A stretch of 64,000 nucleotides of DNA. Origin: Bradyrhizobium sp. B124 (lineage in GTDB: Bacteria > Pseudomonadota > Alphaproteobacteria > Rhizobiales > Xanthobacteraceae). This document shows positions 1,961-62,494 of the stretch, one piece after another (positions within the stretch are counted from its first letter, which is position 1; every line of letters starts with the position of its first letter). Below the pieces are notes generated by a model that saw only the letters and a program-made list of their open reading frames with translations, did no database searches and was not told the origin of the DNA. Made by a program: the position numbers and the translations under genes. The DNA lies in the NCBI RefSeq assembly GCF_038967635.1, contig NZ_CP152413.1, positions 1,612,001-1,676,000 on the forward strand, written 5' to 3'.

Positions 1961-3676
1961 TTAGTGATGGTGATGATCGTCAGACGGGCTGACGATGACC
2001 GTGCCGGCCGTCGGATCGAGGAACAGCTTGTTCTGCCGATCGTCGCCGTCGTGGTCGTGGTCGTGGCCATGATCGAAGTCGAACATGTCCGTGATCGATT
2101 CGACGCTGTCGTCGAACGAGCCGCCGCCGAGACGCTGGCCGTGCAGCCAGTTGTCTTCGATGAAGCGCACGACCGACGCCTGCGAGATGCGGGTGTGGCT
2201 GACGAAGTTCTTCTTGGCGTAAGGCGAGATCACAATGAACGGGATCCGCGTGCCGGGACCGCAGCGGCCGTTCACCGGCTGGCCGTTCAGGCCATTCGGC
2301 TGCGTCTGCTTGCCGATGCCGCGGCCACACTGGCCGGGACCGTTGACCTGGTCGGCGGCCGGATCATACGAGGCGCTGATCGGCGCCGTGTACTGGTGGT
2401 CGTACCAGCCGTCGGAGTCGTCATAGGTGATGATGACCGCGGTGTCGCGCCACTCCTTCTGCTTCTGCAGGAAGTTGATCAGCTCGACATTGCCCGCCTG
2501 CTCATCGAGCGGATCGGAGTTGCCGGGATGTCCGTCCTGATAGGCCGGCATCTTGATATAGGAGACCGCCGGGAAGTTACCGGCTTTCACCGAAGCGTAG
2601 AAGTCCTCGAGATCGTAGGCGTGGTTGGCCGGATCGAGCGTCTTGCTGCCGGGGACATAGGTGTGGCCGACCGCATCGACCGAACTCGGCCGCGCATGGG
2701 TCGGGTTGGCGGTCGACTTGTAGTACTGGAACCAGGCGTGGTGCGGGATGTAGTCGACGATGCTGCCGTTGACGTTGCTCGAGAAGGTGCTGCGGGCGCA
2801 GTTGGTGGTGCCGTTGCTGTTCTTGAGCGTCAGGTCGAAGCCGCCCATGAAGCTGCCCCAGCTGATGTGCTCGGCGTTGAGCAGGTCGCCGATGTTCTTG
2901 CTGGTCATCAGGACCTGGCTGGTCGTGCTCGAGCACGCGTCGTAGGCAGGGTCGGTATCACCGATCAGCGTCAGGCCGCCCTGGCCGTCGGCGATCGACG
3001 ATGACGTGCCGACGATGTTCTGCGCACCATTGGTCTGGCCGGAGACCACCTCGAGCGCGCCGGGCGTCGACGGACCGAAAGTGTCGGTCCAGTTGTTGTC
3101 GCTCATCGCGAAGTTCTGCGCGTAATTCCAGAACGCGGTGACGGTGTTGCCGTCGAAATAACCCATCACCTGCCCGTTGGTGCCGAAGGCGCCGACGCCG
3201 CCGGCGGTGCCGCGACCAGTGAACTTCGGAAACAGGTCTTCCTTGCCGTTGTCGACCGCCTGCTGCTCGGGCGTATAGGCGTGATTCTGCGAGCGCGTGT
3301 TGGCCTGGGTCCGATCGAGCCGGAACGGATTGGTCGCGCCGGTGCCGTTGGCCGCATTGGTGTTCGGGTTGTTGGTCAGCAGATTGGCGTTGGCGAGGTT
3401 GTTGACCTTCGGCGTATGCGGCTTGGCCGTGAACGGAATCGAGCCGGTCGGATTGGCCGCATTCGGGTAGGTTGCGAAATAGTGATCGAACGAGCGGTTC
3501 TCGTTGAAGATCACGACGAGATGCTTGATCGGCGTTTCCGTGTGAATGTCGTGCGGATGACGATGATCGTGATCTCGATCATCGTCGTGAGCGGCGGCGC
3601 TGCACACAACTGCAGCAGCAGCGACCAGACAGACTCCGACCGTTGAAAGGAATTTCGCCTTCACTTCTTGCCCCAT
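1961..3676 (-). CDS. Secreted phosphoesterase (phospholipase C / acid phosphatase AcpA family)
   Basis: A 571-residue exported phosphoesterase of the family that includes phospholipase C and AcpA acid phosphatase. A signal peptide covers about residues 5-30 and is followed by an Asp/His-rich stretch. The family motif FNENRSFDHYFATYP is near residue 56 and a second motif, TYDDSDGWYDHQY, lies in the C-terminal half. RIPFIVISPYAKKNFVSHT is also typical of the family. The tail is again rich in His and Asp and may bind metal. The annotated start is ATG; an in-frame GTG four codons later is an alternative. Pho-box-like half-sites lie about 50 bp upstream, fitting induction by phosphate starvation. 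Confidence 0.9.
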   Translation of the reverse strand: MGQEVKAKFLSTVGVCLVAAAAVVCSAAAHDDDRDHDHRHPHDIHTETPIKHLVVIFNENRSFDHYFATYPNAANPTGSIPFTAKPHTPKVNNLANANLLTNNPNTNAANGTGATNPFRLDRTQANTRSQNHAYTPEQQAVDNGKEDLFPKFTGRGTAGGVGAFGTNGQVMGYFDGNTVTAFWNYAQNFAMSDNNWTDTFGPSTPGALEVVSGQTNGAQNIVGTSSSIADGQGGLTLIGDTDPAYDACSSTTSQVLMTSKNIGDLLNAEHISWGSFMGGFDLTLKNSNGTTNCARSTFSSNVNGSIVDYIPHHAWFQYYKSTANPTHARPSSVDAVGHTYVPGSKTLDPANHAYDLEDFYASVKAGNFPAVSYIKMPAYQDGHPGNSDPLDEQAGNVELINFLQKQKEWRDTAVIITYDDSDGWYDHQYTAPISASYDPAADQVNGPGQCGRGIGKQTQPNGLNGQPVNGRCGPGTRIPFIVISPYAKKNFVSHTRISQASVVRFIEDNWLHGQRLGGGSFDDSVESITDMFDFDHGHDHDHDGDDRQNKLFLDPTAGTVIVSPSDDHHHH

Positions 3677-4302: not shown

Positions 4303-5187
4303 TTAATCCTTCATCCCGGTGATCGAGGCGCTCACCGCCCTGGGATCGCGCTGTGGCCAGCGGCCGCTTTCGACCTGCGCCAGGAAATCGCCGACGATCC
4401 GGTTGTATTCGTCGGGCTCCTCGATGTTGATGGCGTGGCCGCAGTTCGGCATGACGGCGAGCGCGGCGGACGGGATGCTCTGCTTCATCAGGACGCCCGG
4501 CAGCAGGCACGGCCAATCCTCGTCGCCGGTGATGATCAGCGTCGGCACCGTGATGCGCTTCATCTCGTCGACCAGCGTGTAGAGCGAGGGACGCTCCTTC
4601 TGGACGCCCTGCTGGGTGTTGGCCGATCCCACCGCCGAATGCTCGGCCAGCATGGCCTTGAATTCGGCGTGGCCGCGCGGATCCTTGTTCTCGTACTGCA
4701 CGCGGGTCGGGCCGTAGGCGTAACGCTCGGCGAACGTCGGCATGCCGTCCTTGCGGATCATGCCCGCGATCACGTCGGCCTCGGCGCGAAACGTCTCGCG
4801 CTTGTCGAGCTCGGCGCCATAGCCGCAACCGCCGATGCACAGCGACAGCGCGCGCGCCGGGTGACGCAATCCGAAATGCAGCGTCGCAAACCCGCCCATC
4901 GACAGGCCGACGATGTGCGCCTTCGGCGCGCCGATGTGATCGAGCACGGCAAGAATATCGTCGGCGGCGCGCGCCTGCGAATAGGACGAGACCTGCTCGG
5001 GCACGTCAGACGGTGGGAAGCCGCGCGCATTGTAGGCGATGGTGCGGAAGCGCTTGCCGAAATGCCGCATCTGCGGCTCGTAGCTGCGCAGGTCGCCGGC
5101 GAATTCATGGACCAGGATCACCGGATGGCCGGATCCGGTCTCCTCGAAATAGAGCCGCACGCCGTCATCTGTCGTCGCGTAGGGCAT
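4303..5187 (-). CDS. Alpha/beta hydrolase
   Basis: A 294-residue alpha/beta-hydrolase-fold enzyme, expected to cleave an ester, lactone, amide or C-C bond in the cytosol. The nucleophile elbow GLSMGG gives Ser96, the acid is Asp222 or Asp224 (TGDEDW) and the base is His251 (NCGHAIN). The overall look is that of 3-oxoadipate enol-lactonase-type hydrolases. It is the last gene of the six-gene operon, 29 bp after the hydantoinase, where a carbamoylase would be expected in a classical hydantoin pathway. It may therefore process the ring-opened product, but this is inference. Confidence 0.88.
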   Translation of the reverse strand: MPYATTDDGVRLYFEETGSGHPVILVHEFAGDLRSYEPQMRHFGKRFRTIAYNARGFPPSDVPEQVSSYSQARAADDILAVLDHIGAPKAHIVGLSMGGFATLHFGLRHPARALSLCIGGCGYGAELDKRETFRAEADVIAGMIRKDGMPTFAERYAYGPTRVQYENKDPRGHAEFKAMLAEHSAVGSANTQQGVQKERPSLYTLVDEMKRITVPTLIITGDEDWPCLLPGVLMKQSIPSAALAVMPNCGHAINIEEPDEYNRIVGDFLAQVESGRWPQRDPRAVSASITGMKD

Positions 5188-5216
5188 GGTGGTCTCCTGC
5201 CTTCTTGCTTTGCAGG

Positions 5217-6629
5217 TTACGGGATGGTCGCTCCTGCGGGTGGTTTGGCGCGCGGCAAATATGTGCCGTGGTCCTTGCTGCCGACAAGGGTGCCGTCGTC
5301 GACGACCACCCTGCCGCGCACCATGGTCAGCACCGGCCAGCCGGTGACCTCGAGCCCTTCATAGGGCGTGTAGTCGGAGCCGTCATGGATCAGTTCGTGG
5401 CGGATCGTCACCCTGCGCTTGGGGTCCCACAGCGCGATGTCGGCGTCCGAGCCGACCGCGATCGTGCCCTTGCGCGGATAGAGGCCGTAGATCTTGGCAT
5501 GATTGGTGGCGCTGAAGGCGACGAAGCTGTTGAGGTCGATGCGGCCCTTGACCACGCCCTCGGAGAACAGGATCGGCAGCCGCGTCGCCACCCCGGGGAT
5601 GCCGTTCGGTACCCAGCGGAAGCTGGTGCGCCCCTTCGGCGCGAGCTTGCCTTGCGGGTCGTCGTAGCGGAACGGACAGTGGTCCGACGAGAACACCGAG
5701 AACACCTTCTGCTGCAAGCCTTCCCAGCAGGCCTGCTGGCTGGCGACATCGCGCGGTGGCGGCGAGCAGACGTACTTTGCGCCCTCCATGTTGAGCTGAT
5801 CGAGATCCTTCTCGGTCAGCATCAGGTATTGCGGACAGGTTTCGCCCATCACTCGCAAGCCCCGCTGCTGCGCGCGCCGGATCTCGTCCATCGCCTCGCG
5901 GTTTGAGACATGCACGATCATGATCGGCACATCGACGAGCTCGGACAGCGAAATCGCGCGGTGCGTCGCCTCGCGCTCGACCGGGATCGGCCGCGAGGTG
6001 GCGTGGAAGCGCGGCGCGGTGTTGCCGGCGCGTTCCAGCCGGTCGGTCAGGAAGCGGATCGCGTCGAAGTTTTCCGCATGCACCATCAGCATCGCGCCGG
6101 TCTCGCGCGCGACCGACATGGTCTCGAGCAATTCGCGATCCGACAGCGCCAGCCCCTCATAGGTCATGAAGACCTTGAGCGAGGTATAGCCGTCCTCGAC
6201 CAGCGCCGGCAGCTCCTGGCCCAGCACATGCTCGGTCGGATCGGTGACGATCAGATGGAAGGCGACGTCGACGTGGCATTCGCCTTCGGCCAGCGAATGG
6301 TAGTGCTTGAGCGCCTCGCGCAGCGTCTGGCCCTTCTCCTGCAGGCAGAACGGCAGCACGGTGGTGTTGCCGCCGAACGCCGCCGAGCGGGTGCCGCTGG
6401 CAAAGCCGTCGGCCATCACGATGCCATCGCCCGATGGCTGGGCGAAATGGACATGGCTGTCGATGCCGCCGGGCAGCACGAGCCGGTCGGTGGCGTCGAT
6501 GATCGTGGCCGCATCGCCGAGATCGCGGCCGAGCGCCGTGATCTTGCCGTCACGGATTCCGACATCGCAGGCGAAGGTGTCGGCAGCGGTGACGACGGTG
6601 CCGCCGCGGATGATGGTGTCGAAGGACAT
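5217..6629 (-). CDS. hydA: Dihydropyrimidinase / D-hydantoinase
   Basis: A 470-residue amidohydrolase that opens cyclic amides such as dihydropyrimidines, hydantoins or cyclic imides. The binuclear metal site is complete: His59 and His61 (SHVHF), the carboxylated Lys152 (SLKVFMTY), His183 (MVHAEN), His239 (IVHVSN) and Asp315 (SSDHCPF). Length and motif order match the family. Its start overlaps the stop of the upstream racemase-fold gene by one base, so the two are translationally coupled. Substrate specificity within the hydantoinase group cannot be read from the sequence; the operon lacks a recognisable N-carbamoyl amidase, which argues against a standard D-amino-acid route. Confidence 0.93.
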   Translation of the reverse strand: MSFDTIIRGGTVVTAADTFACDVGIRDGKITALGRDLGDAATIIDATDRLVLPGGIDSHVHFAQPSGDGIVMADGFASGTRSAAFGGNTTVLPFCLQEKGQTLREALKHYHSLAEGECHVDVAFHLIVTDPTEHVLGQELPALVEDGYTSLKVFMTYEGLALSDRELLETMSVARETGAMLMVHAENFDAIRFLTDRLERAGNTAPRFHATSRPIPVEREATHRAISLSELVDVPIMIVHVSNREAMDEIRRAQQRGLRVMGETCPQYLMLTEKDLDQLNMEGAKYVCSPPPRDVASQQACWEGLQQKVFSVFSSDHCPFRYDDPQGKLAPKGRTSFRWVPNGIPGVATRLPILFSEGVVKGRIDLNSFVAFSATNHAKIYGLYPRKGTIAVGSDADIALWDPKRRVTIRHELIHDGSDYTPYEGLEVTGWPVLTMVRGRVVVDDGTLVGSKDHGTYLPRAKPPAGATIP

Positions 6630-7393
6630 CAGTCCGTCCCCTCTTTCGGTGAGCGATGTTCGATGATTGCAGCAAGCGGCCCGGCCAGCCCGAGCGTTGG
6701 TTTCGGATCAGGCCGCCGGAAGGTGCCGGCGACCGCCTTGCGCGGCTTAAGCACGGCAAGCGTCTCCGCCTGGCGCACAGCGGCCGCGACCGGATCGACC
6801 ACGGGCACCGGAATGCGGTCGCGGACCTTTGCGGCAAGGCCTGCGAGCGGCGCGCCTGACAGGATGACGACGTCGGCGCCGTCCTGTTCGACCGCCTGGT
6901 TGGCGAGCGCGACCAGCAGCTCTTCCTTCTCGGCCTGCACGTCGGAGATCGACTGGAAGCTACCGTCGAGCGTGCGGATGCCGGCGCAGCGCGAACTCAG
7001 CCCGTGCATGGCGACGCACTCCTCATACCAGGGCGCCAGCGCGCCGGCGAAGGTCACGATGGAGAACCGCCGCCCGAGCATGCAGGCGGTGAGCATCGCG
7101 GCCTCGGCCAGGCCCACCACCGGAAACGCGAACAGCTCGCGCGCGCCGAACAGGCCGGGATCGCCGAACGCGGCGATGATGGCGGCATCGATGCCGGCGC
7201 CGGCCTCGGCCAGCATCTCCAGCGCGATCGCGCCGCCGATCTGGGCCTCGGCGCGGGTCGCGATATACGGCACGCCGCGCGCGGCGGTCGCGGGCACGAG
7301 CTCGGTGCCGGCTGAAGCCACCTTGCTGCCGGCGGCATGGAGCAGATCCGTGACCGCCACTGTCGTGTTAGGATTGAGCAGCAGGATCTTCAT
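6629..7393 (-). CDS. Asp/Glu/hydantoin racemase-fold protein lacking the catalytic cysteines
   Basis: A 254-residue member of the Asp/Glu/hydantoin racemase superfamily, recognised from the opening MKILLLNPNTT, the AAFGDPGL segment near residue 74 and the VVDPV segment near 198. Classical hydantoin racemases carry one cysteine at each of two sites. Here the first site reads AAFGDPG and the second LSGAPLAG, so neither has cysteine; the cysteines present (104, 126, 136) lie elsewhere. Two-base racemisation is therefore unlikely. It overlaps the GntR gene by four bases and the hydantoinase by one, so it belongs to the same pathway. The reaction is unknown. Confidence 0.85.
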   Translation of the reverse strand: MKILLLNPNTTVAVTDLLHAAGSKVASAGTELVPATAARGVPYIATRAEAQIGGAIALEMLAEAGAGIDAAIIAAFGDPGLFGARELFAFPVVGLAEAAMLTACMLGRRFSIVTFAGALAPWYEECVAMHGLSSRCAGIRTLDGSFQSISDVQAEKEELLVALANQAVEQDGADVVILSGAPLAGLAAKVRDRIPVPVVDPVAAAVRQAETLAVLKPRKAVAGTFRRPDPKPTLGLAGPLAAIIEHRSPKEGTD

Positions 7394-8208
7394 GGCGCAA
7401 CGCTCCTCGTCTTGCGGCCGCGCGGCTTTGCGGGAGTGTCCGGCGCCGCGGCGTCATCCGCCTCGTTGTTCAGTGCCTTGCCATCGAGCGTCTCGGCGAC
7501 GATCTCGCCGGTGCGGCGCACGTGGTGGGCCAGCGTTTGCCCGGCACGGGCCGCATCGCGGCGCCTGAGCGCGGCCAGGATATCCTGGTGCTCGCGCACC
7601 GATTCATCCCAGCGCCCAAGCACCGAGAGTGCAAAGAAGCGCGCCCGCTCGGCCCGCGCCAGCAGTGCCTCGTGCGTCGCCTTCAGCACCGCGTTGCGCG
7701 CGAAGCCGACGATCGCCGAATGGATCTGCTGGTTGGCCTGGAAATAGTCGCGCAACTCGCCGCGGCCGTGATGCCACTCGATCTTGTCCTGCAGCGCATC
7801 GAGCCGCTCGAAGTCGGCATCCTCCATGCGCAGCGCGGCGAGTTCGGCGGCGCAGCGCTCGATGCCGCTGACGGCCTCGAACAATTCGGTCAGCTCGGCG
7901 CGGCGGAACGGCGCCACCACGGCACTGTGGTTGAGCCGCAGCTCGACCAGGCCTTCGTTCGCCAACTGCTTCAGCGCCTCGCGCAGCGGGGTCCGCGAAA
8001 TGCCGAGCGCGTCGGACAAATCCGCCTCCCCCAGCGACTGACCCGGCGCCAGCTCGCCGCGCACGATCATCGTGCGTAGCCGAGCCGCCGCCTGCTCGTG
8101 CAGTCCGACCCGCGGCACGCGCAGCCGGCGCCGTTGCTGCGCCGTGATCGCGCGCTTCGGATCCTTGCTCCGTCTGGTCGCCTTAGCTTCAGTCTTGGCT
8201 TCGGTCAC
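7390..8208 (-). CDS. GntR-family transcriptional regulator (FCD/FadR subfamily)
   Basis: A 272-residue regulator with a GntR winged helix at about residues 38-105 (the motif ALGISRTPLREALKQLANEGLV is diagnostic) followed by an all-helical FCD ligand-binding domain with the metal-type histidines (IHSAIV, EHQDIL). A basic N-terminal extension of about 30 residues and a basic C-terminal tail are unusual additions. It sits inside the operon it presumably controls, overlapping its neighbours by four bases on each side. The likely operator is the near-palindrome upstream of the MFS gene. The effector is probably a pathway carboxylate. Confidence 0.92.
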   Translation of the reverse strand: MTEAKTEAKATRRSKDPKRAITAQQRRRLRVPRVGLHEQAAARLRTMIVRGELAPGQSLGEADLSDALGISRTPLREALKQLANEGLVELRLNHSAVVAPFRRAELTELFEAVSGIERCAAELAALRMEDADFERLDALQDKIEWHHGRGELRDYFQANQQIHSAIVGFARNAVLKATHEALLARAERARFFALSVLGRWDESVREHQDILAALRRRDAARAGQTLAHHVRRTGEIVAETLDGKALNNEADDAAAPDTPAKPRGRKTRSVAP

Positions 8209-8981
8209 CGCACGCCTTCATCGTCATGATCAGGGATCGCGGTCGCTGCGCGCAGATCGGGGTTCGTGAACAGGCTGCCCCAGCCGTGCACGCGCGCCGG
8301 GTCGCAGCCCACAGCCGTGAGACACGCCCACAGCGTCACCGCAATCGAATCCAGCACCGGCACGCCAAAACCGCGCTCCAGCCGTTCCGCTGCGCCGGCG
8401 CCACGCATGTTGGTGCAGAGCACGACGGCAGCATCGCAGCCTTCGTGCACCACTTCCTCGATCAGGCCCGCGACCTCGGCCTCGCTGACCTCGGCAAATG
8501 AGAAATTGTCCTGCAGCGCGAGATGCCGCTCGGCAAAACAATGCAGCCCGGCCGAATTCCAGTTGGCGATGATCCTGTCCTGCACATCCCTGCGATACGG
8601 CGTCACCAGCCCGATGCGCCTGGCGCCGATCCGCCGCAGCAGGTCGCGATAGGCCAGCACCGTAGTGCAGGCCTTGATCCCGGTCGCCGCCGTGATCTGC
8701 TCGCACAGGCTCTCGTCGCGATCGAAGCCGAGCCAGCTTGCCGAGGTGCCGTTCCAGGCGATGACGTCAACCTTGGCATGCGCCAGCAACTCTGCCGCGC
8801 GAAGGATCTCGCTGGCGTCGAACTGGCGCAGCGCCTGTTCCGACAGCGCGATCTCCGTCACCTTGAAGCGCGAGAAATGCGCCGAGACGTCGTCGACGCC
8901 TGCCAGCATCGCGCAGGTAATCGGCTCGAGTGCGGTATTCGACGACGGCGTCAGCATGCCGAGCCGGATAGGACGTGTCAT
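8205..8981 (-). CDS. Arylmalonate decarboxylase / maleate isomerase-like protein
   Basis: A 258-residue protein of the Asp/Glu racemase superfamily branch that holds maleate isomerase and arylmalonate decarboxylase. The opening LGMLTPSSNTALEP is typical. Maleate isomerase uses two cysteines; here only the second remains (Cys189, in VLCTNMRG), while the first position reads Gly78-Thr79-Ser80. A Gly-Thr-Ser plus single-Cys layout, with a tyrosine in TPYRRD (Tyr129), is the active-site pattern known from arylmalonate decarboxylase (Gly74, Thr75, Ser76, Tyr126, Cys188). Decarboxylation of a malonate-type compound is thus a fair guess. It lies 54 bp after the MFS gene. Confidence 0.8.
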   Translation of the reverse strand: MTRPIRLGMLTPSSNTALEPITCAMLAGVDDVSAHFSRFKVTEIALSEQALRQFDASEILRAAELLAHAKVDVIAWNGTSASWLGFDRDESLCEQITAATGIKACTTVLAYRDLLRRIGARRIGLVTPYRRDVQDRIIANWNSAGLHCFAERHLALQDNFSFAEVSEAEVAGLIEEVVHEGCDAAVVLCTNMRGAGAAERLERGFGVPVLDSIAVTLWACLTAVGCDPARVHGWGSLFTNPDLRAATAIPDHDDEGVR

Positions 8982-9035
8982 TCGTGAGGCCTCATCAACC
9001 GGCCGAACCCTTGGCAGGATTCGGCCGTCTTTGTT

Positions 9036-10340
9036 TCAGACCGGGAGCTTGCGGCTGTAATCGATCAGGGTCGAGCAGATCAACAGCGCAATGCCCGCGG
9101 CGGCAAAATACATCAGCGCGAGGAAGTAGGAGCCGGTGGCCTGCACGATGAAGCCGACGATCAGGGGTGTCGTGATGCCGGCGATGTTGCCGCCGAGATT
9201 CATGCAGCCGCCGAGGAAGCCGGACTTGCCGCGGCCGGCCAGCGCCGACGGGATCGCCCAGTACATGCCGCACCAGCGCAGGAAGAACAGCGTCGTCGAC
9301 AGCAGCACCACGACCGCGACCGCGTTGGTGACGTAGGCGACGAGGAAGATCGACACCGTCGCCATGATCGCCGCGATCCCGAACAGGGTGCGGAACACGG
9401 TGTTGGGCGCCCCGCCCCGCGCGCGCCAGGCGTCGCCGATCCAGCCGCCGACCAGTTCGCCGACGAAGCCCGCGAAGAAGATGATGAAGGATGCGCCGCC
9501 GAGCGCCTTGATGTCGAAGCCGTGCACCTTGAACAGATAGGTCGGCATCCAGGTCAGCAGGCCGTAGAAGGTGGTGTTGAAGAACATCCAGCCCAGGCAC
9601 ATGCACCAGACCGAGCGGAAGCGGAAATAAGCCATCCCACTCGCGCCGGACGACGGCGGCGTCGCCGCGTCCTCGATCGCATGCGCCTCCTCGAGATAGC
9701 GCGCCTCCGCTTCATTGACCGACGGATGCTCGCGCGGCGCGTTGCGGATGTAGTACCAGGCCCACAGGCCGCACAGCATGGTGCCGATGCCCGCCAAGAC
9801 GAAGGCGACGCGCCAGGAGCTGAACGCCGCCATCAGCCAGGCGATCACGATCGAGCCGAGCGCAGCGCCAAGCGGCGCGCCGCCGTCCAGCAGAGTGGCG
9901 CCGCGGCCGCGTTCGGTCTGAGTCATCCAGATCGCGTTGAGCTTGCCGCCGGCCGGATAGATCGGCGCTTCCGACGCACCGAGCCCGAGCCGGGTCAGCA
10001 GCAACAGCATCCAGCTGGTGGACAGCGCCGCCAGCGCCTGGAAGAAACCCCAGAACAGCGTTGCGAGCGCGATCACGATCCGCGGCTTGAAGCGATCGGC
10101 GAGCATGCCGCCCGGCACCTGCATCAGCGCGTAGGTCCAGAAGAACGAGCTCAGGATCAGGCCCTGCATCGCCGGATCGATGTCGAACTCCTTGGCGATG
10201 ACGGGCATTGCGACCGACAGCGAGGCGCGATCGATATAGTTGATCGAGATCAGGAACAGCATCAGCAGGAAGATCTTCCAGCGCACGCCGGAAGGCTTCG
10301 CCGTATCTGCCATTGCGATGGTGGACACCTGATCGCTCAT
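9036..10340 (-). CDS. MFS transporter (anion:cation symporter type)
   Basis: A 434-residue major-facilitator transporter in the inner membrane with about 12 transmembrane segments. The first helices and the motif ISINYIDRASLSVAMPVIAKEF followed by GGMLADRF place it with the anion:cation symporters that import carboxylates such as hexuronates, tartrate or phthalate. The start was set at the Met preceded by a GAGGAG ribosome site; an upstream in-frame Met 17 codons earlier lacks one. It is the first gene of the six-gene operon and probably brings in the substrate, likely an organic acid or cyclic imide derivative. Confidence 0.9.
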   Translation of the reverse strand: MSDQVSTIAMADTAKPSGVRWKIFLLMLFLISINYIDRASLSVAMPVIAKEFDIDPAMQGLILSSFFWTYALMQVPGGMLADRFKPRIVIALATLFWGFFQALAALSTSWMLLLLTRLGLGASEAPIYPAGGKLNAIWMTQTERGRGATLLDGGAPLGAALGSIVIAWLMAAFSSWRVAFVLAGIGTMLCGLWAWYYIRNAPREHPSVNEAEARYLEEAHAIEDAATPPSSGASGMAYFRFRSVWCMCLGWMFFNTTFYGLLTWMPTYLFKVHGFDIKALGGASFIIFFAGFVGELVGGWIGDAWRARGGAPNTVFRTLFGIAAIMATVSIFLVAYVTNAVAVVVLLSTTLFFLRWCGMYWAIPSALAGRGKSGFLGGCMNLGGNIAGITTPLIVGFIVQATGSYFLALMYFAAAGIALLICSTLIDYSRKLPV

Positions 10341-10460
10341 TGCTCGCTCCTCTGCCGGCAGATTGTTTTTGCCCCGCGCGACCTTCGTCATCGAAGGTCA
10401 TCGGCCCTCTCCTGCCCCGCGCAAAGTCTGCTTCAAGCCGCGTGAGGCCACAAGCACATT

Positions 10461-10477
10461 TTGTATTCTGCATGCAA
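10461..10477. promoter_or_regulatory. Candidate GntR operator in an AT-rich promoter region
   Basis: TTGTAT and ATGCAA form an inverted repeat with one mismatch around a 5-bp spacer. It lies in a roughly 60-bp AT-rich island about 120 bp upstream of the MFS gene, the most likely promoter of the operon. FCD-type GntR regulators often bind short sites of this kind, but no second copy was found. Confidence 0.35.
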
Positions 10478-10686: not shown

Positions 10687-11853
10687 CTACTGCGAGGGGG
10701 TCTTCGGCTCGGCCTCGAGCGCGAACAATGCCAGCAGCGCAGCCAAGCTAAGCGCCGATGTGACCGCGAACGTATAGCCACCGAGCGGTGCAATCAGAAA
10801 TCCGAATACCAGCGGTGCGACGGCTTGAGACAGCCGCGATGGCGCGCCGAGCAGCCCCAAGCGGTAGCCGTAATCCTTCGGGCCGAATATCGCCAGCGGC
10901 AGCGTGCCACGTGCGATCGTCAGGATGCCGTTTCCCGCGCCGTGCAGCAGTGCGAAGATCCCGGCAAAGCCACCGCCGAACAGGCCGATGACGCAGGCGC
11001 CCAAGGGGTGCGTGATGCAGGCCAATCGCGCCGACCAGAGTGGATGGAAGCGCTTCAGCAGGCTCGCTTCGACAATCCGCGCCGCCACCTGCGCCGGGCC
11101 GATCAGCGCGCCCGCGGCGATCGCCTGGGTTTGCGTCGCGCCGAGTGACTCCAGAATTCGCGGCAGATGCACCGCCATCGCGGACGTGACGCTCCAGGCG
11201 GCCGCGAAGGCAAAGGCGAGCAACACCATCGCGCGGTCGATCGGAATATGCGGCTTTGGCGTGTCGGCCGCGATCCGATGCTCGCTCTTCAGTTTGGGGA
11301 CCACGAAGGCGTTGAGCGGCAGGCAGATCAGAATGTGCGCCGCCGCCCAGCCGAAGCAGGTCCAACGCCAGCCGATGGTTGCGAGGCCCCACGCGGTCAG
11401 CGGCCAGCCTATCGTGCTGGCAAACCCCGCGATCAAGGTGATGCCGGTGATGGAGCGGCGCGCGGTGTTGCCATAGATTCGCCCGAGCGCCGCGAACGCC
11501 GCGTCATACAGGCCAAGGCCCATGCCGACGCCGAGCAGCAGCCAGCTTGCAGCCATCAGAACGGCCCCCTGCGAAAGCCCGAGCAGGATCAGGCCGAACG
11601 CCAGGATAAGATTGGACGCACAGAGCACTTCGCGCCCGCCCATGCGGTCGATCTGGCGGCCGACGCGCGGGCCGAGCAGTCCTGATATCACGAGCGCCAT
11701 CGAGAACGCGGCGAACAGCCAGTTCGTCGATATGCCGAGGTCCCGCGCGATCGGGTCCGCAAGAATCGCCGGCAGATAATAGCTCGACGCCCAGGCCAGG
11801 GTTTGCGTGGTGCCGAGCGCGACGATCAGGACGTTATCTGCACGGCGGCTCAT
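10687..11853 (-). CDS. MFS transporter of the arsenic operon
   Basis: A 388-residue major-facilitator protein with about 12 membrane helices, beginning MSRRADNVLIVALGTTQTLAWASSYYLP. The general look is of the monocarboxylate/oxalate-like branch. The true start was placed where its ATG overlaps the arsC stop by four bases; a longer open frame runs on upstream but is just the arsC region in another phase. As the last gene of arsR-aqpS-arsC it is likely to export an arsenic species or a product of arsenate reduction, taking the place of arsB or acr3. That role is inferred only from position. Confidence 0.85.
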   Translation of the reverse strand: MSRRADNVLIVALGTTQTLAWASSYYLPAILADPIARDLGISTNWLFAAFSMALVISGLLGPRVGRQIDRMGGREVLCASNLILAFGLILLGLSQGAVLMAASWLLLGVGMGLGLYDAAFAALGRIYGNTARRSITGITLIAGFASTIGWPLTAWGLATIGWRWTCFGWAAAHILICLPLNAFVVPKLKSEHRIAADTPKPHIPIDRAMVLLAFAFAAAWSVTSAMAVHLPRILESLGATQTQAIAAGALIGPAQVAARIVEASLLKRFHPLWSARLACITHPLGACVIGLFGGGFAGIFALLHGAGNGILTIARGTLPLAIFGPKDYGYRLGLLGAPSRLSQAVAPLVFGFLIAPLGGYTFAVTSALSLAALLALFALEAEPKTPSQ

Positions 11854-12275
11854 CCGGCGTGCGCACCCGGCTTCCTGGGCAAGACCACTTCGCCGTCTTC
11901 CTTGATGAACCGGCCGATGTCGGCGACGGCCAGGAGATCGAGAACCGCTTCGGACGGCCGGCACAACCTCACGCCCTTGGGCGAGACCACGATCGGCCGG
12001 TTGATCAGGATCGGATGCGCGATCATGAAATCGATCAATTCGTCGTCGCTCCATTTCGGATTGGCGAGATCGAGCGCGCCATAGGGCGTGCCCTTCTCGC
12101 GCAGCAGCGCGCGCGGCGTCATGCCCATGGCAGCGATCAGCGCGATCAGCTTGTCGCGCGAGGGAGGCGTCTTGAGATACTCGATGATCTCGGGCTCCTC
12201 CCCGCTTTGGCGGATCATTGCCAGGGTGTTGCGCGACGTCCCGCAATCGGGATTGTGGTAGATCGTGATCGTCAT
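11850..12275 (-). CDS. arsC: Arsenate reductase, glutaredoxin-dependent
   Basis: A 141-residue cytosolic arsenate reductase that converts arsenate to arsenite using glutathione and glutaredoxin. The catalytic Cys11 sits in HNPDCGTSRNT and the arginines of the E. coli-type enzyme are represented in the NRPIVV and CRPSE segments. Length matches the family. It overlaps aqpS by four bases upstream and the MFS gene by four bases downstream, so the operon is translationally coupled. Confidence 0.95.
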   Translation of the reverse strand: MTITIYHNPDCGTSRNTLAMIRQSGEEPEIIEYLKTPPSRDKLIALIAAMGMTPRALLREKGTPYGALDLANPKWSDDELIDFMIAHPILINRPIVVSPKGVRLCRPSEAVLDLLAVADIGRFIKEDGEVVLPRKPGAHAG

Positions 12276-12958
12276 CGGACTGCTTCCTTAGTGGTTTCGG
12301 CGCCCCGCAGCAGCCAGGTCATGAATGCCAGCGCGACCATGGCTCCCAGAACCTCGGCGACGATGAATCCCGGCAGATCCTGCGCGCGGATGCCGGAAAA
12401 CGTGTCGGTGAACGATCGCGCGATGGCAACGGCCGGATTGGCGAAAGACGTGGATGCGGTGAACCAGTACGCGGCCGTGATATAAAGCCCGACCAGCCAT
12501 GGAATTGCGGCCTCACGAAACCGGAGGCCACCAATGATCGTTGCGATCAGTCCGAACGCGGCAACGAATTCGGCAAACCATTGCGGAAATCCCGTCCGTG
12601 CCTTCGCCGAGAACTCCAGGAGCGGCAGGCCGAACATGGCGTGCGCGACCATCGCGCCGAGGATTCCCCCGAGCACCTGCGCCGTGACGTATTGCGCGGC
12701 GTGCGGCGGACGGAGTTTGCCCTTGAGCATGAAGACCAGCGTGACTGCCGGATTGAAATGCGCGCCGGATATTGGTCCGAGGATCGTGATCAGCACCACC
12801 AGAATGGCGCCGGTCGGAAGGGTGTTACCGAGCAGCGCCAACGCCACGTCCTTGGTCAACGTCTCGGCCATGATGCCGGAGCCAACGACGGTCGCGACCA
12901 GAAGCAAGGTACCGAGGCCCTCGGCCGCCAGGCGCCGCGGCAGGTCGAAGCCGTGCAT
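12272..12958 (-). CDS. aqpS: Aquaglyceroporin of the arsenic operon (AqpS-like)
   Basis: A 228-residue six-helix channel of the MIP/aquaporin family. Both pore-forming NPA motifs are intact: residues 69-71 (HFNPAVT) and 174-176 (FANPAVA), the latter followed by the usual arginine. In Sinorhizobium meliloti the AqpS channel of an arsR-aqpS-arsC operon lets arsenite made by ArsC leave the cell down its gradient; the gene order is the same here. The start at MHGFDLP overlaps the arsR stop by four bases, which decides it over an upstream in-frame Met. Confidence 0.92.
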   Translation of the reverse strand: MHGFDLPRRLAAEGLGTLLLVATVVGSGIMAETLTKDVALALLGNTLPTGAILVVLITILGPISGAHFNPAVTLVFMLKGKLRPPHAAQYVTAQVLGGILGAMVAHAMFGLPLLEFSAKARTGFPQWFAEFVAAFGLIATIIGGLRFREAAIPWLVGLYITAAYWFTASTSFANPAVAIARSFTDTFSGIRAQDLPGFIVAEVLGAMVALAFMTWLLRGAETTKEAVR

Positions 12959-13317
12959 CAGGCGCGCGCCTTTTTCTTGGCCGTGGACGGCCCGCACTGA
13001 ACATCGGCGAGCGCCGGCGCGCAGATGTCGGGGTGGCCCGCACAGCAATCCTTCATCAGGAAGGCGATGAGATCGCGCAAGCCGATGAAATCCGCCGAGT
13101 AGATGATCGAACGCGCCTCGCGGCGCGGCACGATCATGCCGGCATGCTCGAGGTCCTTCAGATGGAACGACACGTTGGATGGCGATACTGCGACCGCCTC
13201 GGCAATCGCCCCTGCCGCCATGCCATCGGGACCGGCCTGTACCAACAGCCGCACGATCCGCAGCCGCGTTTCCTGCGACAGCGCGGCGAAGGCGGTTCGG
13301 GCTTGACGCTCCTCCAT
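12958..13317 (-). CDS. arsR: ArsR-family metalloregulatory repressor
   Basis: A 119-residue winged-helix repressor of the ArsR/SmtB family. The recognition helix is around residues 45-57 (SPSNVSFHLKDLEHAG). The arsenite-binding site is not in that helix but near the C-terminus, where Cys91, Cys92 and Cys99 cluster (KDCCAGHPDIC). This matches the three-cysteine type described for Acidithiobacillus ferrooxidans ArsR. Arsenite binding should release it from the palindrome in the 50-bp gap to the divergent DUF6428 gene. It is the first gene of arsR-aqpS-arsC-MFS. Confidence 0.94.
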   Translation of the reverse strand: MEERQARTAFAALSQETRLRIVRLLVQAGPDGMAAGAIAEAVAVSPSNVSFHLKDLEHAGMIVPRREARSIIYSADFIGLRDLIAFLMKDCCAGHPDICAPALADVQCGPSTAKKKARA

Positions 13318-39545: not shown

Positions 39546-39658
39546 TCCAGTCGGCATGACCGGCCGTGCGCCGCTGCCATCCGGTAGCGCGCACGCTTCC
39601 GCACAGATCGATGTCGCGACAGCGCAGGGCCAATGGCATGCGCTGCGGAGAGGCGCAC

Positions 39659-40882
39659 ATGAAACGGGTTGTTCTATTCTTCGCCGGCGTGGCTGCCGGC
39701 ATTGCACTGATCATTCTGGCGGCCGGATGGATCGGCTGGCCAGTCAGGTTCCCGGCCACGACGCAGGAGACGGCGACCGCAGATCCACCGAAAGTCGAGG
39801 CCGCGCATGAAGCTCCCGGACATATCGAGCTAAGCGAAGACCAGATCCGTGAATCTGGCATCACGCTCGCACCGGCCGGCGGCGGCATGCTGAAGCGGCA
39901 TTTCCTCGCGCCGGGATCGTTGATCCCCGACGCCGATCATATCGGCCGCGTCTCGGTCCGCGTGCTCGCGACGGTCACGGAACTGCGCAAGCGTCTCGGC
40001 GACGTGGTCGAGAAAGGCGAGATCGTCGCTGCGATCGAAAGTCGTGAGGTGGCCGACGCCAAGAGCGAATACCTCGCCGCGCGGCTCACCAACGACCTGC
40101 AGCAGACGCTCTACGCGCGACAGAAGACGCTGGTCGAGACCCGCATCGTCTCGGAAAACGAGTTCCTGCGCACGCGACTGACCGCGAACGACGCCCAGAT
40201 CAAGCTCGACGGCGCGCGGCAAAAACTGTTTGCGCTCGGCCTGTCGGAAAGCGAGATCACCGATCTGCCCAACCAGCCGCCCGAAAGCCTGCGGACGCAG
40301 TTCCTGCGCGCGCCGATCAGCGGCCGGGTGTCCGAACGGCGCGTCGATCTCGGCGGCCTGGTCGGGCGCGAGGGGCAGGAAAGCGAACTCTACGTCATCG
40401 TCAATCTCGACGACATCTGGGTCGATCTGGCGGTTTCGCCCGAAGACATCGGCGCGGTCCGCGAAGGCGTTTCGGTCAAGATCCGCGCCATCGGCACCGA
40501 GGATGAAGCCAATGCCGGCGTGATCTTCGTCAGCCCCCTGCTCGACCGCGAGACCCGCAATGCCCGCGTGATCGCGACCATGCCCAACAAGGAGCACCGC
40601 TGGAAGCCCGGCACCTTCGTCACCGCGGAAGTGCCGCTGTCAGGCGCGCCGTCGACGGTGATGGTGACGAAGAAGGCCATTCAAACCATCAAGGGAACGC
40701 CGACCGTGTTCGTGCGCGACGCCGACGGCTTCGAGGCGAGGTCGGTACGGACCGGCCGTGAGGACGATAACGACATCGAAATCGTCGCGGGTCTTGCCGC
40801 CGGCGAGACCATTGCGGTGCAGAACACCTTCACGTTGAAGGCCGAAGTCGAGAAGGACGAAGCGGAGCACGGCCATGATTGA
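39659..40882 (+). CDS. czcB: RND efflux membrane fusion protein (CzcB/CusB type)
   Basis: A 407-residue periplasmic adaptor anchored by an N-terminal helix (MKRVVLFFAGVAAGIALIILAAGW). Its barrel-sandwich and hairpin regions follow the HlyD/CusB pattern (VTELRKRLGDVVEKGEIVAAIESREVADAK, FLRAPISGRVSERRVDLGGLVG). GGAGAGG lies before ATG. It overlaps czcA by eight bases. It would connect the inner-membrane pump to an outer-membrane factor not seen here. Confidence 0.9.
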   Translation: MKRVVLFFAGVAAGIALIILAAGWIGWPVRFPATTQETATADPPKVEAAHEAPGHIELSEDQIRESGITLAPAGGGMLKRHFLAPGSLIPDADHIGRVSVRVLATVTELRKRLGDVVEKGEIVAAIESREVADAKSEYLAARLTNDLQQTLYARQKTLVETRIVSENEFLRTRLTANDAQIKLDGARQKLFALGLSESEITDLPNQPPESLRTQFLRAPISGRVSERRVDLGGLVGREGQESELYVIVNLDDIWVDLAVSPEDIGAVREGVSVKIRAIGTEDEANAGVIFVSPLLDRETRNARVIATMPNKEHRWKPGTFVTAEVPLSGAPSTVMVTKKAIQTIKGTPTVFVRDADGFEARSVRTGREDDNDIEIVAGLAAGETIAVQNTFTLKAEVEKDEAEHGHD

Positions 40883-43800
40883 GCGCATCATCGGTCTCGC
40901 GATCCAGCGGCGCTGGGTCGTTGTCACACTGGCGGCCATCCTGATGTTTCTCGGCGGCCTCGCATTGACCAGGCTGCCGATCGACGCAGTGCCCGACATC
41001 ACCAACAAGCAGGTCCAGATCAACACCGTCGCCCCGGCGTTGTCGCCGGCGGAAATCGAGAAGCAGATCACCTTCCCGATCGAGACGGCGCTGGCGGGCG
41101 CGCCGGGGCTGGAGAGCACGCGGTCGCTCTCCCGCAACGGCTTCTCGCAGATCACCGCGGTGTTCAGCGAAGCCACCGACATCTATTTCGCCCGCCAGCA
41201 GGTCGGCGAGCGCCTGACCGAGGTGCGCGCGCGCCTGCCCCAGGGCATCGAGCCGCGAATTGGCCCGACCACGACGGGTCTTGGCGAAATCTACATGTGG
41301 ACCGTCCACTACTCCGGCCAGAAGGTGCAGACCGACGGCGCGCCGGGCCTGCAGAGCGACGGCCGCTTCCTGACGGCGGACGGCCAGGTGTTGCAAAGCG
41401 AGGTCGAGAAAGACGCCTATCTGCGCACAGTGCAGGACTGGATCATCAAGCCGCAGATCAAGATGGTGCCTGGCGTCGCCGGCGTCGATTCGATCGGCGG
41501 CTATCTCAAGCAGTACCAGGTGCAGCCCGATGCGGCGAAGCTGATCGCGCTCGGCCTCACCTTCGCCGACGTCGCCAAGGCGATCGAGAGCAACAATGTC
41601 AGCCGCGGTGCGCGCTATATCGAGCGCAACGGCGAAGGATTCGTGGTTCGGTCCGGCGGCCGCCTCGAGAACATCGAGGAGCTCGGCGCGGTCGTCGTCA
41701 CCACCCGCGGCGGCGTCCCGGTCCGGATCCGCGACCTCGCCTCGCTCTCGATCGGCGGCGAGACGCGCACCGGCAGCGCCAGCGAGAACGGCCGCGAGGT
41801 CGTGGTCGGCACCGCACTGATGCTGATCGGCGCCAACAGCCGCACGGTATCGGCCGCGGTCGACGCCAAACTGCGTGCGATCACGCCATCCTTGCCGGCA
41901 GGCGTCGCAGTCGAGACGGTGCTCGATCGCACCCAGCTGGTCGATGCGACCATCGGCACGGTGGCGCGAAACCTCGCCGAAGGCGCGCTGCTGGTGATCG
42001 CGGTTCTGTTCGTGCTGCTCGGCAATTTCCGCGCGGCATTGATCACGGCACTGGTGATCCCGATCGCCATGCTGATGACGGCGATCGGCATGTTTCAGGG
42101 CCGCATCAGCGCCAATCTGATGAGCCTCGGTGCACTGGATTTCGGCCTGATCGTCGATGGCGCCGTCATCATCACCGAGAACAGCCTGCGTCATCTTGCC
42201 GAGAAGCAGCATGTGCTTGGCCGCGTGCTGACCCGCAACGAACGGCTGGCGACGGTGCAGGCGTCTGCCGTGGAGATGGTGCAGCCGAGCCTCTACGGCC
42301 AGGCCATCATCCTGCTGGTCTATGTGCCGCTCCTCACCTTCACCGGCGTCGAAGGCAAGATGTTCGAGCCGATGGCGCTGACCGTGATTCTCGCGCTCGC
42401 TGCCGCCTTCGTGCTGTCGCTGACACTGGTTCCGGCGCTGATCGCGATCGGCATCACCGGCCGCGTGCAGGAGAAGGAGAACTGGCTCGTTGCCACATTG
42501 AAGCGCTGGTACAGCCCGCTGCTCCGGCGCGCGGTTGCAACGCCCCTACCCGTCATCGCCGTGGCGGTCGTGTTGTTCGCGACCGCCCTGTTCGGGTTCT
42601 TCCGGCTCGGCCAGGAGTTCATCCCCTCGCTCGACGAGAAGAACATCGCCATGCACGCGCTGAGAATTCCGAGCACGGCGCTGTCGCAGTCGCAGGCGAT
42701 GCAACTCTCGGTCGAGAAGGCCGTCAGCCGCTTTCCGCAAGTGTCGTTCGTCTTCTCCAAGACCGGCACCGCGGAGGTGGCGAGCGACCCGATGCCGCCG
42801 AACGCATCCGACACCTTCATCATCCTGAAGCCGCGCGCGCAGTGGCCGGATCCGTCGCTGACCAAGGAGCAGTTGATCGAAGACATTTCGAAGGCGGTCG
42901 GCCGGCTGCCCGGCAACGTCTATGAATTCACCCAGCCGATCCAGATGCGCTTCAACGAACTGCTCGCCGGCGTTCGCGGCGACATCGCGGTCAAGGTGTT
43001 CGGCGACGAGTTCGAGCCGATGCAGAAGGCCGCCAACCAGATCGCCGCCGCGCTGCGCGGCGTGCGCGGCGCGACCGACGTCAAGGTCGAACAGGCCGGT
43101 GGCCTGCCCGTGCTCGAGATCAAGGTCGACAAGGCGGCGATCGCCCGGCGGGGCCTCAGCGTCTCCGAGGTCCAGGACGTGATCGGTGCGGCGGTCGGCG
43201 GCCAGGATGCCGGCGTCGTCTACGAGGGCGATCGCAGCTTCGACATCGTGGTGCGGTTGCCGGAGAGCGTCCGCTCCGATCTCGAGGCGTTGAGCAATTT
43301 GCCGGTCGCCTTGCCGAAGGCAACGCCGAGTTCGCCGGTGCAGAGCCTGCCGCTCAACCGCGTCGCGCAGTTCTCCTTCACCGAGGGGCCGAACCAGATC
43401 AGCCGCGAGAACGGCAAGCGCCGCATCGTGGTGACGGCCAATGTCCGCGGCCGCGATCTCGGCTCGGTGGTCGAAGAAGCTCAGGCAAAGGTCACGCAAT
43501 CGGTGCAGCTGCCGCCCGGCTACTGGATGACCTGGGGCGGCCAATCGGAAAATCTCGCCGCGGCGCGCCAGCGCCTTGCCGTCGTGGTGCCGGCCTGTTT
43601 TGCGATGATCTTCCTGTTGCTGCTGGCGGCGATGGGCTCGACGCGCCATGCGCTGCTGGTGTTCAGCGCGGTGCCGCTGGCGCTCACCGGCGGCGTCGCG
43701 GCGCTGTGGCTGCGCGGCATGCCGTTCTCGATCTCGGCGGCGGTCGGCTTCATCGCGCTGTCCGGCGTTGCGGTGCTGAACGGGCTCGTGATGCTGAGCT

Positions 43801-44099
43801 TCGTCAGGCAATTGCGCGAGCGCGGCGTGCCGATGCGGGAGGCCATCGAGCAAGGCGCCCTCACCCGCTTCCGGCCGGTGGTGATGACTGCGCTGGTGGC
43901 CTCGCTCGGTTTCGTGCCGATGGCGTTCGCCACCGGCACCGGCGCCGAGGTGCAGAAGCCGCTCGCCACCGTCGTGATCGGCGGCCTGATCAGCGCGACC
44001 CTGCTCACGCTCGCCGTCCTGCCCGCGCTCTATGCACGGTACGGGCATGCCGGCAGCGCCGCGCGCAATGAGAGCACCGCGGTTCAGCCCGCGGAATGA
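40875..44099 (+). CDS. czcA: Heavy-metal RND efflux pump (CzcA/CusA family)
   Basis: A 1074-residue inner-membrane proton-driven exporter. The family N-terminus LPIDAVPDITNKQVQINT and the transmembrane-helix-4 motif DFGLIVDGAVIITE, with Asp422, Asp428 and Glu435, correspond to the D-D-E triad of CzcA (Co/Zn/Cd). It has the RND duplication of two halves of six helices each plus large periplasmic loops. It is coupled with the membrane fusion gene, but no CzcC-type outer-membrane gene follows. Confidence 0.93.
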   Translation: MIERIIGLAIQRRWVVVTLAAILMFLGGLALTRLPIDAVPDITNKQVQINTVAPALSPAEIEKQITFPIETALAGAPGLESTRSLSRNGFSQITAVFSEATDIYFARQQVGERLTEVRARLPQGIEPRIGPTTTGLGEIYMWTVHYSGQKVQTDGAPGLQSDGRFLTADGQVLQSEVEKDAYLRTVQDWIIKPQIKMVPGVAGVDSIGGYLKQYQVQPDAAKLIALGLTFADVAKAIESNNVSRGARYIERNGEGFVVRSGGRLENIEELGAVVVTTRGGVPVRIRDLASLSIGGETRTGSASENGREVVVGTALMLIGANSRTVSAAVDAKLRAITPSLPAGVAVETVLDRTQLVDATIGTVARNLAEGALLVIAVLFVLLGNFRAALITALVIPIAMLMTAIGMFQGRISANLMSLGALDFGLIVDGAVIITENSLRHLAEKQHVLGRVLTRNERLATVQASAVEMVQPSLYGQAIILLVYVPLLTFTGVEGKMFEPMALTVILALAAAFVLSLTLVPALIAIGITGRVQEKENWLVATLKRWYSPLLRRAVATPLPVIAVAVVLFATALFGFFRLGQEFIPSLDEKNIAMHALRIPSTALSQSQAMQLSVEKAVSRFPQVSFVFSKTGTAEVASDPMPPNASDTFIILKPRAQWPDPSLTKEQLIEDISKAVGRLPGNVYEFTQPIQMRFNELLAGVRGDIAVKVFGDEFEPMQKAANQIAAALRGVRGATDVKVEQAGGLPVLEIKVDKAAIARRGLSVSEVQDVIGAAVGGQDAGVVYEGDRSFDIVVRLPESVRSDLEALSNLPVALPKATPSSPVQSLPLNRVAQFSFTEGPNQISRENGKRRIVVTANVRGRDLGSVVEEAQAKVTQSVQLPPGYWMTWGGQSENLAAARQRLAVVVPACFAMIFLLLLAAMGSTRHALLVFSAVPLALTGGVAALWLRGMPFSISAAVGFIALSGVAVLNGLVMLSFVRQLRERGVPMREAIEQGALTRFRPVVMTALVASLGFVPMAFATGTGAEVQKPLATVVIGGLISATLLTLAVLPALYARYGHAGSAARNESTAVQPAE

Positions 44100-60129: not shown

Positions 60130-60297
60130 TTATTTGGACTGACCCTGACCGCTGACGGGCTCGTCGTCGGCGATGGCGCGCCATGCCGCGCCATCGAGGT
60201 CGTCATATTGGCCGCTCTTGAGCGACCATAGAAAGCCGAGTAGCCCGGCAAAGCCAAGCGCGAGCGCCAGCGGCACCAGAATAACCAGAACTTCCAT
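60130..60297 (-). CDS. ccoS: cbb3-type oxidase assembly protein CcoS
   Basis: A 55-residue membrane protein, MEVLVILVPLALALGFAGLLGFLWSLKSGQYDDLDGAAWRAI, with the family's helix and the conserved QYDDL-G-A-R motif. It is needed to insert haem and copper into cbb3 oxidase. Its ATG overlaps the ccoI stop by four bases. It is the last gene of ccoGHIS. Confidence 0.95.
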   Translation of the reverse strand: MEVLVILVPLALALGFAGLLGFLWSLKSGQYDDLDGAAWRAIADDEPVSGQGQSK

Positions 60298-62483: not shown

Positions 62484-62494
62484 GGGATGCACCT

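Follow-up and report, generated by a model that had tools for sequence, protein, structure and literature searches.

A six-gene operon of the soil bacterium Bradyrhizobium sp. B124 combines a hydantoinase with a one-cysteine protein resembling arylmalonate decarboxylase (AMDase). This module, which has no linked carbamoylase, recurs in other genomes and is more general than the 64,000-nucleotide stretch analysed here could show by itself (positions 1,612,001 to 1,676,000 of contig NZ_CP152413.1, assembly GCF_038967635.1; hereafter the window). Judging from sequence, we lean slightly towards reading the operon as one regulated unit for the uptake and breakdown of a small cyclic amide or ureide, by the route proposed below.

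Gene order and regulation of the operon

Gene calling confirmed six genes in the window, all on the minus strand, in the order MFS, AMD, GntR, RAC, HYD and ABH; the gene finder was custom-made, and the starts of some neighbouring genes are extended. The MFS importer (9036..10340, or 9036-10391 with the alternative start at 10391; Pfam MFS_1) is nearest to the D-galactonate transporter group TIGR00893 in NCBIfam, at 237.8 bits and below the cut-off of 395. It is followed by the AMDase-like protein (AMD, 8205..8981; Pfam Amdase/Asp_Glu_race), a GntR-family regulator of the FCD subfamily (7390..8208; Pfam and NCBIfam GntR-FCD), a hydantoin/allantoin-racemase homologue with neither catalytic cysteine (RAC, 6629..7393; Pfam Asp_Glu_race), a D-hydantoinase/dihydropyrimidinase (HYD, 5217..6629) and, as a lineage-specific last gene, an alpha/beta hydrolase (ABH, 4303..5187; Pfam Abhydrolase). 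From MFS to ABH, the junctions are a 54-bp gap, overlaps of 4, 4 and 1 bp, and a 29-bp gap, and no carbamoylase-type gene was called within the operon. A preliminary description of this DNA had listed an importer, a regulator, a racemase-fold protein, a hydantoinase, a hydrolase and a decarboxylase-like protein without a carbamoylase, overlapping by 1-4 bases over most of the unit; gene calls and families bear this out, with three of the five junctions overlapping. All six genes are under purifying selection, with dN/dS between 0.03 and 0.33 in 29 gene-by-relative comparisons (RAC 0.10-0.20, AMD 0.12-0.18). The host genome measures 9.17 Mb, and loci of other Bradyrhizobium genomes reach 99% HYD identity to the window.

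The six-gene order, for which a search among relatives had been proposed, was indeed found there. An ABH-based search, from which the best 80 of 291 loci were taken and whose sample is biased towards ABH, gave 24 loci with the operon neighbours (L043-L066; 23 from Bradyrhizobium and one from a Bradyrhizobiaceae metagenome-assembled genome). The complete order was present in 23 of them, and the remaining locus, L051, is cut by a contig end. Starting from AMD instead (at least 70% identity), 13 operons were collected, 12 of them from a search of 120 relatives plus the window's own genome and one from a further search. All 13 carry the first five genes in order; ABH comes next in 10 (in L207 matched in two pieces) and is absent in L133, L143 and L174, which marks ABH as a gene added in a single lineage.

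Upstream of the MFS gene lies a probable operator, TTGTATTCTGCATGCAA, at 10461..10477 (no strand), a 17-bp imperfect palindrome of the form TTGYAT-N5-ATRCAA. Allowing at most one mismatch, as in all counts below unless stated, it is the single such site in the window, where 0.18 are expected; as 16 of 100 shuffles contained at least one site, the palindrome is only suggestive from the window alone. Among relatives, a site stands upstream of MFS in all 23 operons with upstream DNA (the window and 22 loci; L051 and L066 are cut upstream and were left out). Chance conservation was tested by shuffling: the 52 annotated loci contain 19 sites, while four mononucleotide shuffles of their DNA (3.86 Mb in total) contained 1. 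Seventeen of the 19 are upstream of operon-type genes, and the other two are at L127:8227 and L191:19113.

The same site also occurs in a second architecture, between GntR and a divergent ABC-transporter gene (L125, L127, L128, L135, L137, L140, L141, L178 and L181) or, as a variant, between GntR and a divergent AMD (L130 and L131). An operator at the matching place was found in 17 of 23 loci of the same genus, and L126 has a site with two mismatches. As the operator adjoins the GntR gene in the divergent architecture, this regulator is its probable binder, and one regulator-operator pair probably serves both architectures within the genus. The shared operator argues against independent regulation of the genes. 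A single transcription unit, as previously described, is supported; one regulatory site stands upstream of the operon and none inside it.

The hydantoinase and its partners

The linkage of AMD and HYD was counted in 48 loci with AMD of at least 45% identity, taking HYD at 50% identity or more within 8.5 kb; the count excludes L132 and L142, whose AMD falls below 45% identity, as well as L043 and L059, which nearly duplicate the window's operon. HYD was found within 8.5 kb of AMD in 36 of the 48 loci and within 300 bp in 26; RAC was near AMD in 21 and GntR in 24. These loci are not independent, many coming from one genus, and linkage was counted without a formal control. With one or two hydantoinase genes per multi-megabase genome, however, such closeness would rarely arise by chance, and the pair recurs in alphaproteobacteria and in other classes of the same phylum. 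It follows that the natural substrate can be sought directly.

The transporter near AMD varies in type (MFS, NMT1-type ABC, polyamine-type ABC, TRAP or dipeptide-type ABC, with some of these assignments made by eye). Within 8.5 kb of AMD, the 48 loci also contain genes for amidase-signature proteins (11), molybdenum-hydroxylase subunits (7), TRZ/ATZ-type amidohydrolases (4), polysaccharide-deacetylase/PuuE-like proteins (4), FmdA-like proteins (3), HyuA/HyuB (3) and gamma-glutamyltranspeptidases (3). Neighbour families were verified on single members, those of the TRZ/ATZ and FmdA-like groups being below NCBIfam cut-offs. These enzymes suggest catabolism of an N-heterocycle or cyclic amide, with counts that lack a background control. 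The gamma-glutamyltranspeptidase-family gene was seen in three genomes, in L133 by Pfam and in L185 and L201 by clustering.

HYD passes two curated cut-offs, PRK13404 with 768 bits (cut-off 647) and TIGR02033 with 535 bits (cut-off 393). Its residues H59, H61, K152, H184, H240 and D316, which we take to be metal ligands, the bridging lysine and the catalytic aspartate, are kept in 64-65 of 65 aligned rows, the window's copy included; Y157 is present as well. HYD has no close second in its genome, where the nearest other match is 33% identical. No dihydropyrimidine dehydrogenase exceeded the cut-off in the host genome, as against 2 of 14 control genomes, and a place for HYD in the ordinary reductive uracil route is therefore unlikely. 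Hydantoin-5-propionate hydrolase ErtD was rejected as an identity for HYD (235 of 650 bits). According to passages of PMC3546935, the natural role of bacterial hydantoinases is still unclear.

AMD (P12-S13-S14-N15, R38, G78-T79-S80, Y129, N159 and C189-T190-N191) passes the Pfam model Amdase PF17645 with 81.2 bits (gathering threshold 25.9), a score that may not be exclusive to AMDases. Excerpts of PMC4996985 give G74, T75/S76, Y126 and C188 as catalytic residues of AMDase, P14-P15 and G189 as parts of its motifs, and L40, V43, Y48, V156 and M159 as its hydrophobic pocket. The catalytic residues correspond to G78, T79/S80, Y129 and C189 of AMD. The best match in the PDB is maleate isomerase 4fq7 and the best in NCBIfam is EutA (TIGR02990, 90.6 bits, cut-off 318). 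Maleate isomerase has two active-site cysteines, and Gly78 of AMD aligns to the first cysteine of 4fq7. Gly78 was present in 77 of 78 AMD alignment rows, the exception being L142 (32% identity). At this place a cysteine was found in 18 of 20 distant paralogues (the exceptions are L275, which repeats an AMD member, and L276, with histidine) and in all 10 EutA or EutA-like rows, six over the EutA cut-off and four under it. Identity as maleate isomerase or EutA was rejected, since both carry cysteine where AMD has Gly78.

In a 90-row tree the one-cysteine AMD group forms one side of a single branch with support of 100/99; its bootstrap had yet to settle completely, some of its branches are long, and it contains no AMDase or maleate isomerase with established activity. 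The tree excludes rows of fewer than 170 residues and AMD rows exceeding 85% identity, and the EutA rows L238 and L243 were left out of both the tree and the Gly78 counts. By sequence, AMD is a single-cysteine clade that looks AMDase-like catalytically and is otherwise closer to maleate isomerase and EutA. A search for true AMDases found none in 200 genomes but none in the control genomes either, and therefore carries no weight. The best 120 homologues each of AMD, RAC and ABH carry general names only (for example maleate isomerase, allantoin racemase or pimeloyl-ACP methyl ester carboxylesterase). Within the collection of papers searched, none was found to pair a hydantoinase (or dihydropyrimidinase) with either arylmalonate decarboxylase or maleate isomerase, and in broader searches no paper was recognised as treating this operon.

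RAC is a full-length homologue of the allantoin racemase KpAllR (3qvj, E 1.6e-33). KpAllR uses Cys79 and Cys184, and the corresponding cysteines are required in OpaE, as stated in parts of PMC12661438. A75 and G180 replace them in RAC; with the window's copy included, alanine is found at position 75 in 50 of 53 rows and glycine at 180 in 52 of 53, and the only row with both cysteines is L142, a paralogue of 38% identity. RAC can thus be no racemase by the known two-cysteine mechanism, and the role of hydantoin racemase was rejected. By our placing from the alignment, N9 and T114 are kept (KpAllR Asn12 and Thr118) and F115 replaces Thr119. Cys104 is invariant in the closer rows.

The absence of a linked carbamoylase extends beyond the window. 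Four M20 queries, three of them of carbamoylase type, gave no match in the 81 AMD loci, some of which are one contig under two identifiers; the positive controls responded. This indicates that the carbamoylase gap is general, and the hydantoinase without an adjoining carbamoylase described before holds in related loci as well. Five nitrilase-family queries gave a match in one of the 81 loci; a divergent D-carbamoylase could be missed, no true one being among the queries. The match lies in L138 at a distance of 5.6 kb from AMD; this locus also encodes a second hydantoinase, which shares 48% identity with HYD. This second hydantoinase and the nearby nitrilase-family gene (L138, 1700-4054) are possibly a D-carbamoylase cluster like those of other Bradyrhizobium strains.

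In the host genome, three M20 genes exceed the TIGR01879 cut-off, all unlinked to the operon. One, L211, fits PRK09290.1-3 over the cut-off; another, L212, is an allantoate-amidohydrolase equivalog near a formamidase and genes that appear ureide-related by eye. The genome also has nine genes of the nitrilase family; a scan of seven of them gave none the name of a carbamoylase, although NCBIfam may have no D-carbamoylase model. Given the three unlinked M20 genes and the lack of a true D-carbamoylase query, a distant partner may exist; the preliminary description had named a carbamoylase elsewhere that works with the operon as grounds for refutation, which these genes neither establish nor exclude. 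Passages of PMC3546935 report Bradyrhizobium genomes with hydantoinase genes that are not clustered with a D-carbamoylase.

ABH has an invariant Ser96, Asp222/Asp224 and His251 in 84 rows, the window's copy included. It is related to 3-oxoadipate enol-lactonase, the closest NCBIfam model, and to esterases, and is below every NCBIfam cut-off shown (PcaD 110 of 256 bits, RutD 66 of 238 bits). Of the 80 best ABH loci, 56 (L067-L122, some of them short) showed no AMD. ABH relatives of 70-83% identity stand near genes for, among others, LigB-type or catechol dioxygenases, BKACE, formamidase and NMT1-type proteins, families that were verified on single members. In L067, HyuA/HyuB adjoin an MFS-ABH pair whose operator deviates by one mismatch, which links ABH a second time to genes for ring opening.

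A proposed breakdown route and its rivals

In the route that we propose, the GntR protein would bind the single, conserved operator upstream of the first gene and release it on meeting the compound or its product. The MFS protein, to judge by its family, would import the compound, which probably carries a negative charge. HYD, given its family and intact residues, is predicted to open the ring by metal-assisted hydrolysis, and no linked carbamoylase would handle its product. AMD, with one catalytic cysteine, may then act on a carboxylated ring or a ring-opened acid by one-sided proton transfer. As an AMDase-type pocket is not fully kept, decarboxylation leaving a single enantiomer is only the most likely of several such transfers, and decarboxylation as such is a tentative assignment that we would sooner doubt than assert. 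RAC, keeping the racemase fold, would be unable to racemise by the two-cysteine mechanism. ABH, added in this Bradyrhizobium lineage, may be the final hydrolase on a remaining amide, carbamoyl or ester bond; that it cleaves the product of HYD or AMD is doubtful.

Several observations weigh against this proposal. Twelve of the 48 AMD loci, some of them short contigs, showed no HYD within 8.5 kb, and some near relatives of HYD lack AMD and stand next to genes for an amino-acid ABC transporter and a protein resembling cysteine desulfurase. ABH is missing from three of the 13 operons and is present in many other settings. Six loci of the same genus (L124, L129, L136, L138, L139 and L142) and all 29 loci of other genera showed no operator at the corresponding position. 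AMD reaches 69.2 bits against a cut-off of 225 for the NCBIfam AMDase model NF052327, and its P-S-S-N and C-T-N replace the P-P-A and C-G-G of AMDase, with P12-S13 for P14-P15 and T190 for G189. The AMDase pocket destabilises the leaving carboxyl group, and two of its five positions appear polar in AMD, N159 for V156 and R38 for L40, which argues against an AMDase-type expulsion of CO2. The other pocket positions are V41, which keeps V43, L46 (Y48) and F162 (M159); positions 12-46, R38 included, were placed by fitting the published motif without gaps, and N159 by alignment. The HYD relatives without AMD include two of about 70% identity on Rhodobacter and Pararhizobium plasmids (L010, 6764-9416; L011, 6701-9401), where the transporter and desulfurase-like genes form a unit with the hydantoinase, a second setting for such enzymes.

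How much of this is new chemistry can be weighed against more ordinary explanations. The operon may belong to an undescribed breakdown route. In its specific form, with hydantoinase-type opening combined in either order with a cofactor-free single-cysteine AMD step (decarboxylation or one-sided protonation), new chemistry by RAC and no carbamoylase, we regard such a route as possible but somewhat unlikely; AMD would then be a new enzyme family, and RAC would perhaps use its invariant C104. A hydantoinase pathway of the ordinary kind, split over the genome, would leave the HYD product, an N-carbamoyl acid, to an unlinked M20 enzyme and side activities to AMD, RAC and ABH. It could draw on the three unlinked genes that exceed the TIGR01879 cut-off, L211 and L212 being among these carbamoylase-type genes, and on the Bradyrhizobium hydantoinase genes unclustered with D-carbamoylase in passages of PMC3546935. 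We nevertheless judge it improbable, since none of the 81 AMD loci has an M20 match and the one nitrilase-family match comes from L138, which has two hydantoinases, RAC cannot serve as a racemase, and AMD is near HYD in 36 of 48 loci.

A cyclic-imide route, with HYD as imidase, ABH as half-amidase and a dicarboxylic acid passing to central metabolism, is very unlikely, as it leaves AMD and RAC unexplained and ABH is absent from three of the 13 operons. Imidases do belong to the same enzyme superfamily as hydantoinases, the MFS family of this importer is known for organic anions, and ABH has the complete triad of a serine hydrolase. Unlikely, too, is that ABH is a passenger, a general enol-lactonase- or esterase-like gene acquired by the operon in a single lineage of Bradyrhizobium without a part in the HYD pathway. 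Strong selection, the fixed last place in 10 of 13 operons and the MFS-ABH pair beside HyuA/HyuB in L067 speak against it, although the relatives of ABH stand in varied settings, 56 of the best 80 of 291 ABH loci showed no AMD, and the closest NCBIfam model, 3-oxoadipate enol-lactonase, is far from being reached.

The preliminary description as a whole is thus upheld in part. The unit and the carbamoylase gap stand, and three roles were changed or weakened. The racemase-fold protein has the fold over its full length, but A75 and G180 in place of both catalytic cysteines take away the standard racemase; the malonate-decarboxylase-like protein has the catalytic residues of AMDase but not its hydrophobic pocket. 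A hydrolase is present where a carbamoylase might stand, but its role as a replacement is weakened because three of 13 operons do without ABH and AMD was not seen in 56 of the 80 best ABH loci.

Should the new-route reading hold, it would supply a natural function for some of the many bacterial hydantoinases whose purpose is unclear. A decarboxylase role for AMD would broaden a small family of enzymes that serve in making chiral acids. Hydantoinases are industrial enzymes, and the finding supplies a gene set, one regulatory site and predictions at the level of residues.

Other genes of the window and known systems

Elsewhere in the window, a likely arsenic cassette lies at 10687-13048 on the minus strand, with an MFS protein, an ArsC-family protein (11850-12275) and a MIP-family channel (12272-13048), assigned by Pfam; the MFS open reading frame, called from 12246, overlaps ArsC, and its true start is probably later. 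On the same strand, a di-haem cytochrome c peroxidase/MauG-family protein (605-1936) adjoins a phosphoesterase-family protein (1961-3676) with a C-terminus rich in histidine and aspartate. A CusB/HlyD-type and RND-type efflux pair is found at 39566-44099 on the plus strand and a P-type ATPase with a heavy-metal-associated domain at 60297-62570 on the minus strand.

Among known systems, hyu clusters have a D-hydantoinase, a hydantoin-racemase-fold protein and a transporter in common with the operon. Here, in contrast, there is no linked D- or L-carbamoylase, the racemase-fold protein has neither catalytic cysteine, and an AMDase-like protein is a frequent partner of the hydantoinase. Reductive pyrimidine catabolism resembles it in that HYD is in the dihydropyrimidinase family, but here no dihydropyrimidine dehydrogenase exceeds the cut-off and no beta-ureidopropionase-type gene is linked. 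With hydantoin/allantoin racemase (KpAllR, 3qvj; EC 5.1.99.5), RAC shares the fold, N9 and T114 and differs in A75, G180 and F115. Maleate isomerase shares P-S-S-N and Arg38 with AMD, and EutA shares Arg38, but both have cysteine for Gly78. AMDase (EC 4.1.1.76) and AMD have in common glycine for the first racemase cysteine, Thr-Ser, tyrosine and one catalytic cysteine, whereas AMDase has hydrophobic pocket residues where AMD has Arg38 and Asn159, and neither P-S-S-N nor C-T-N.

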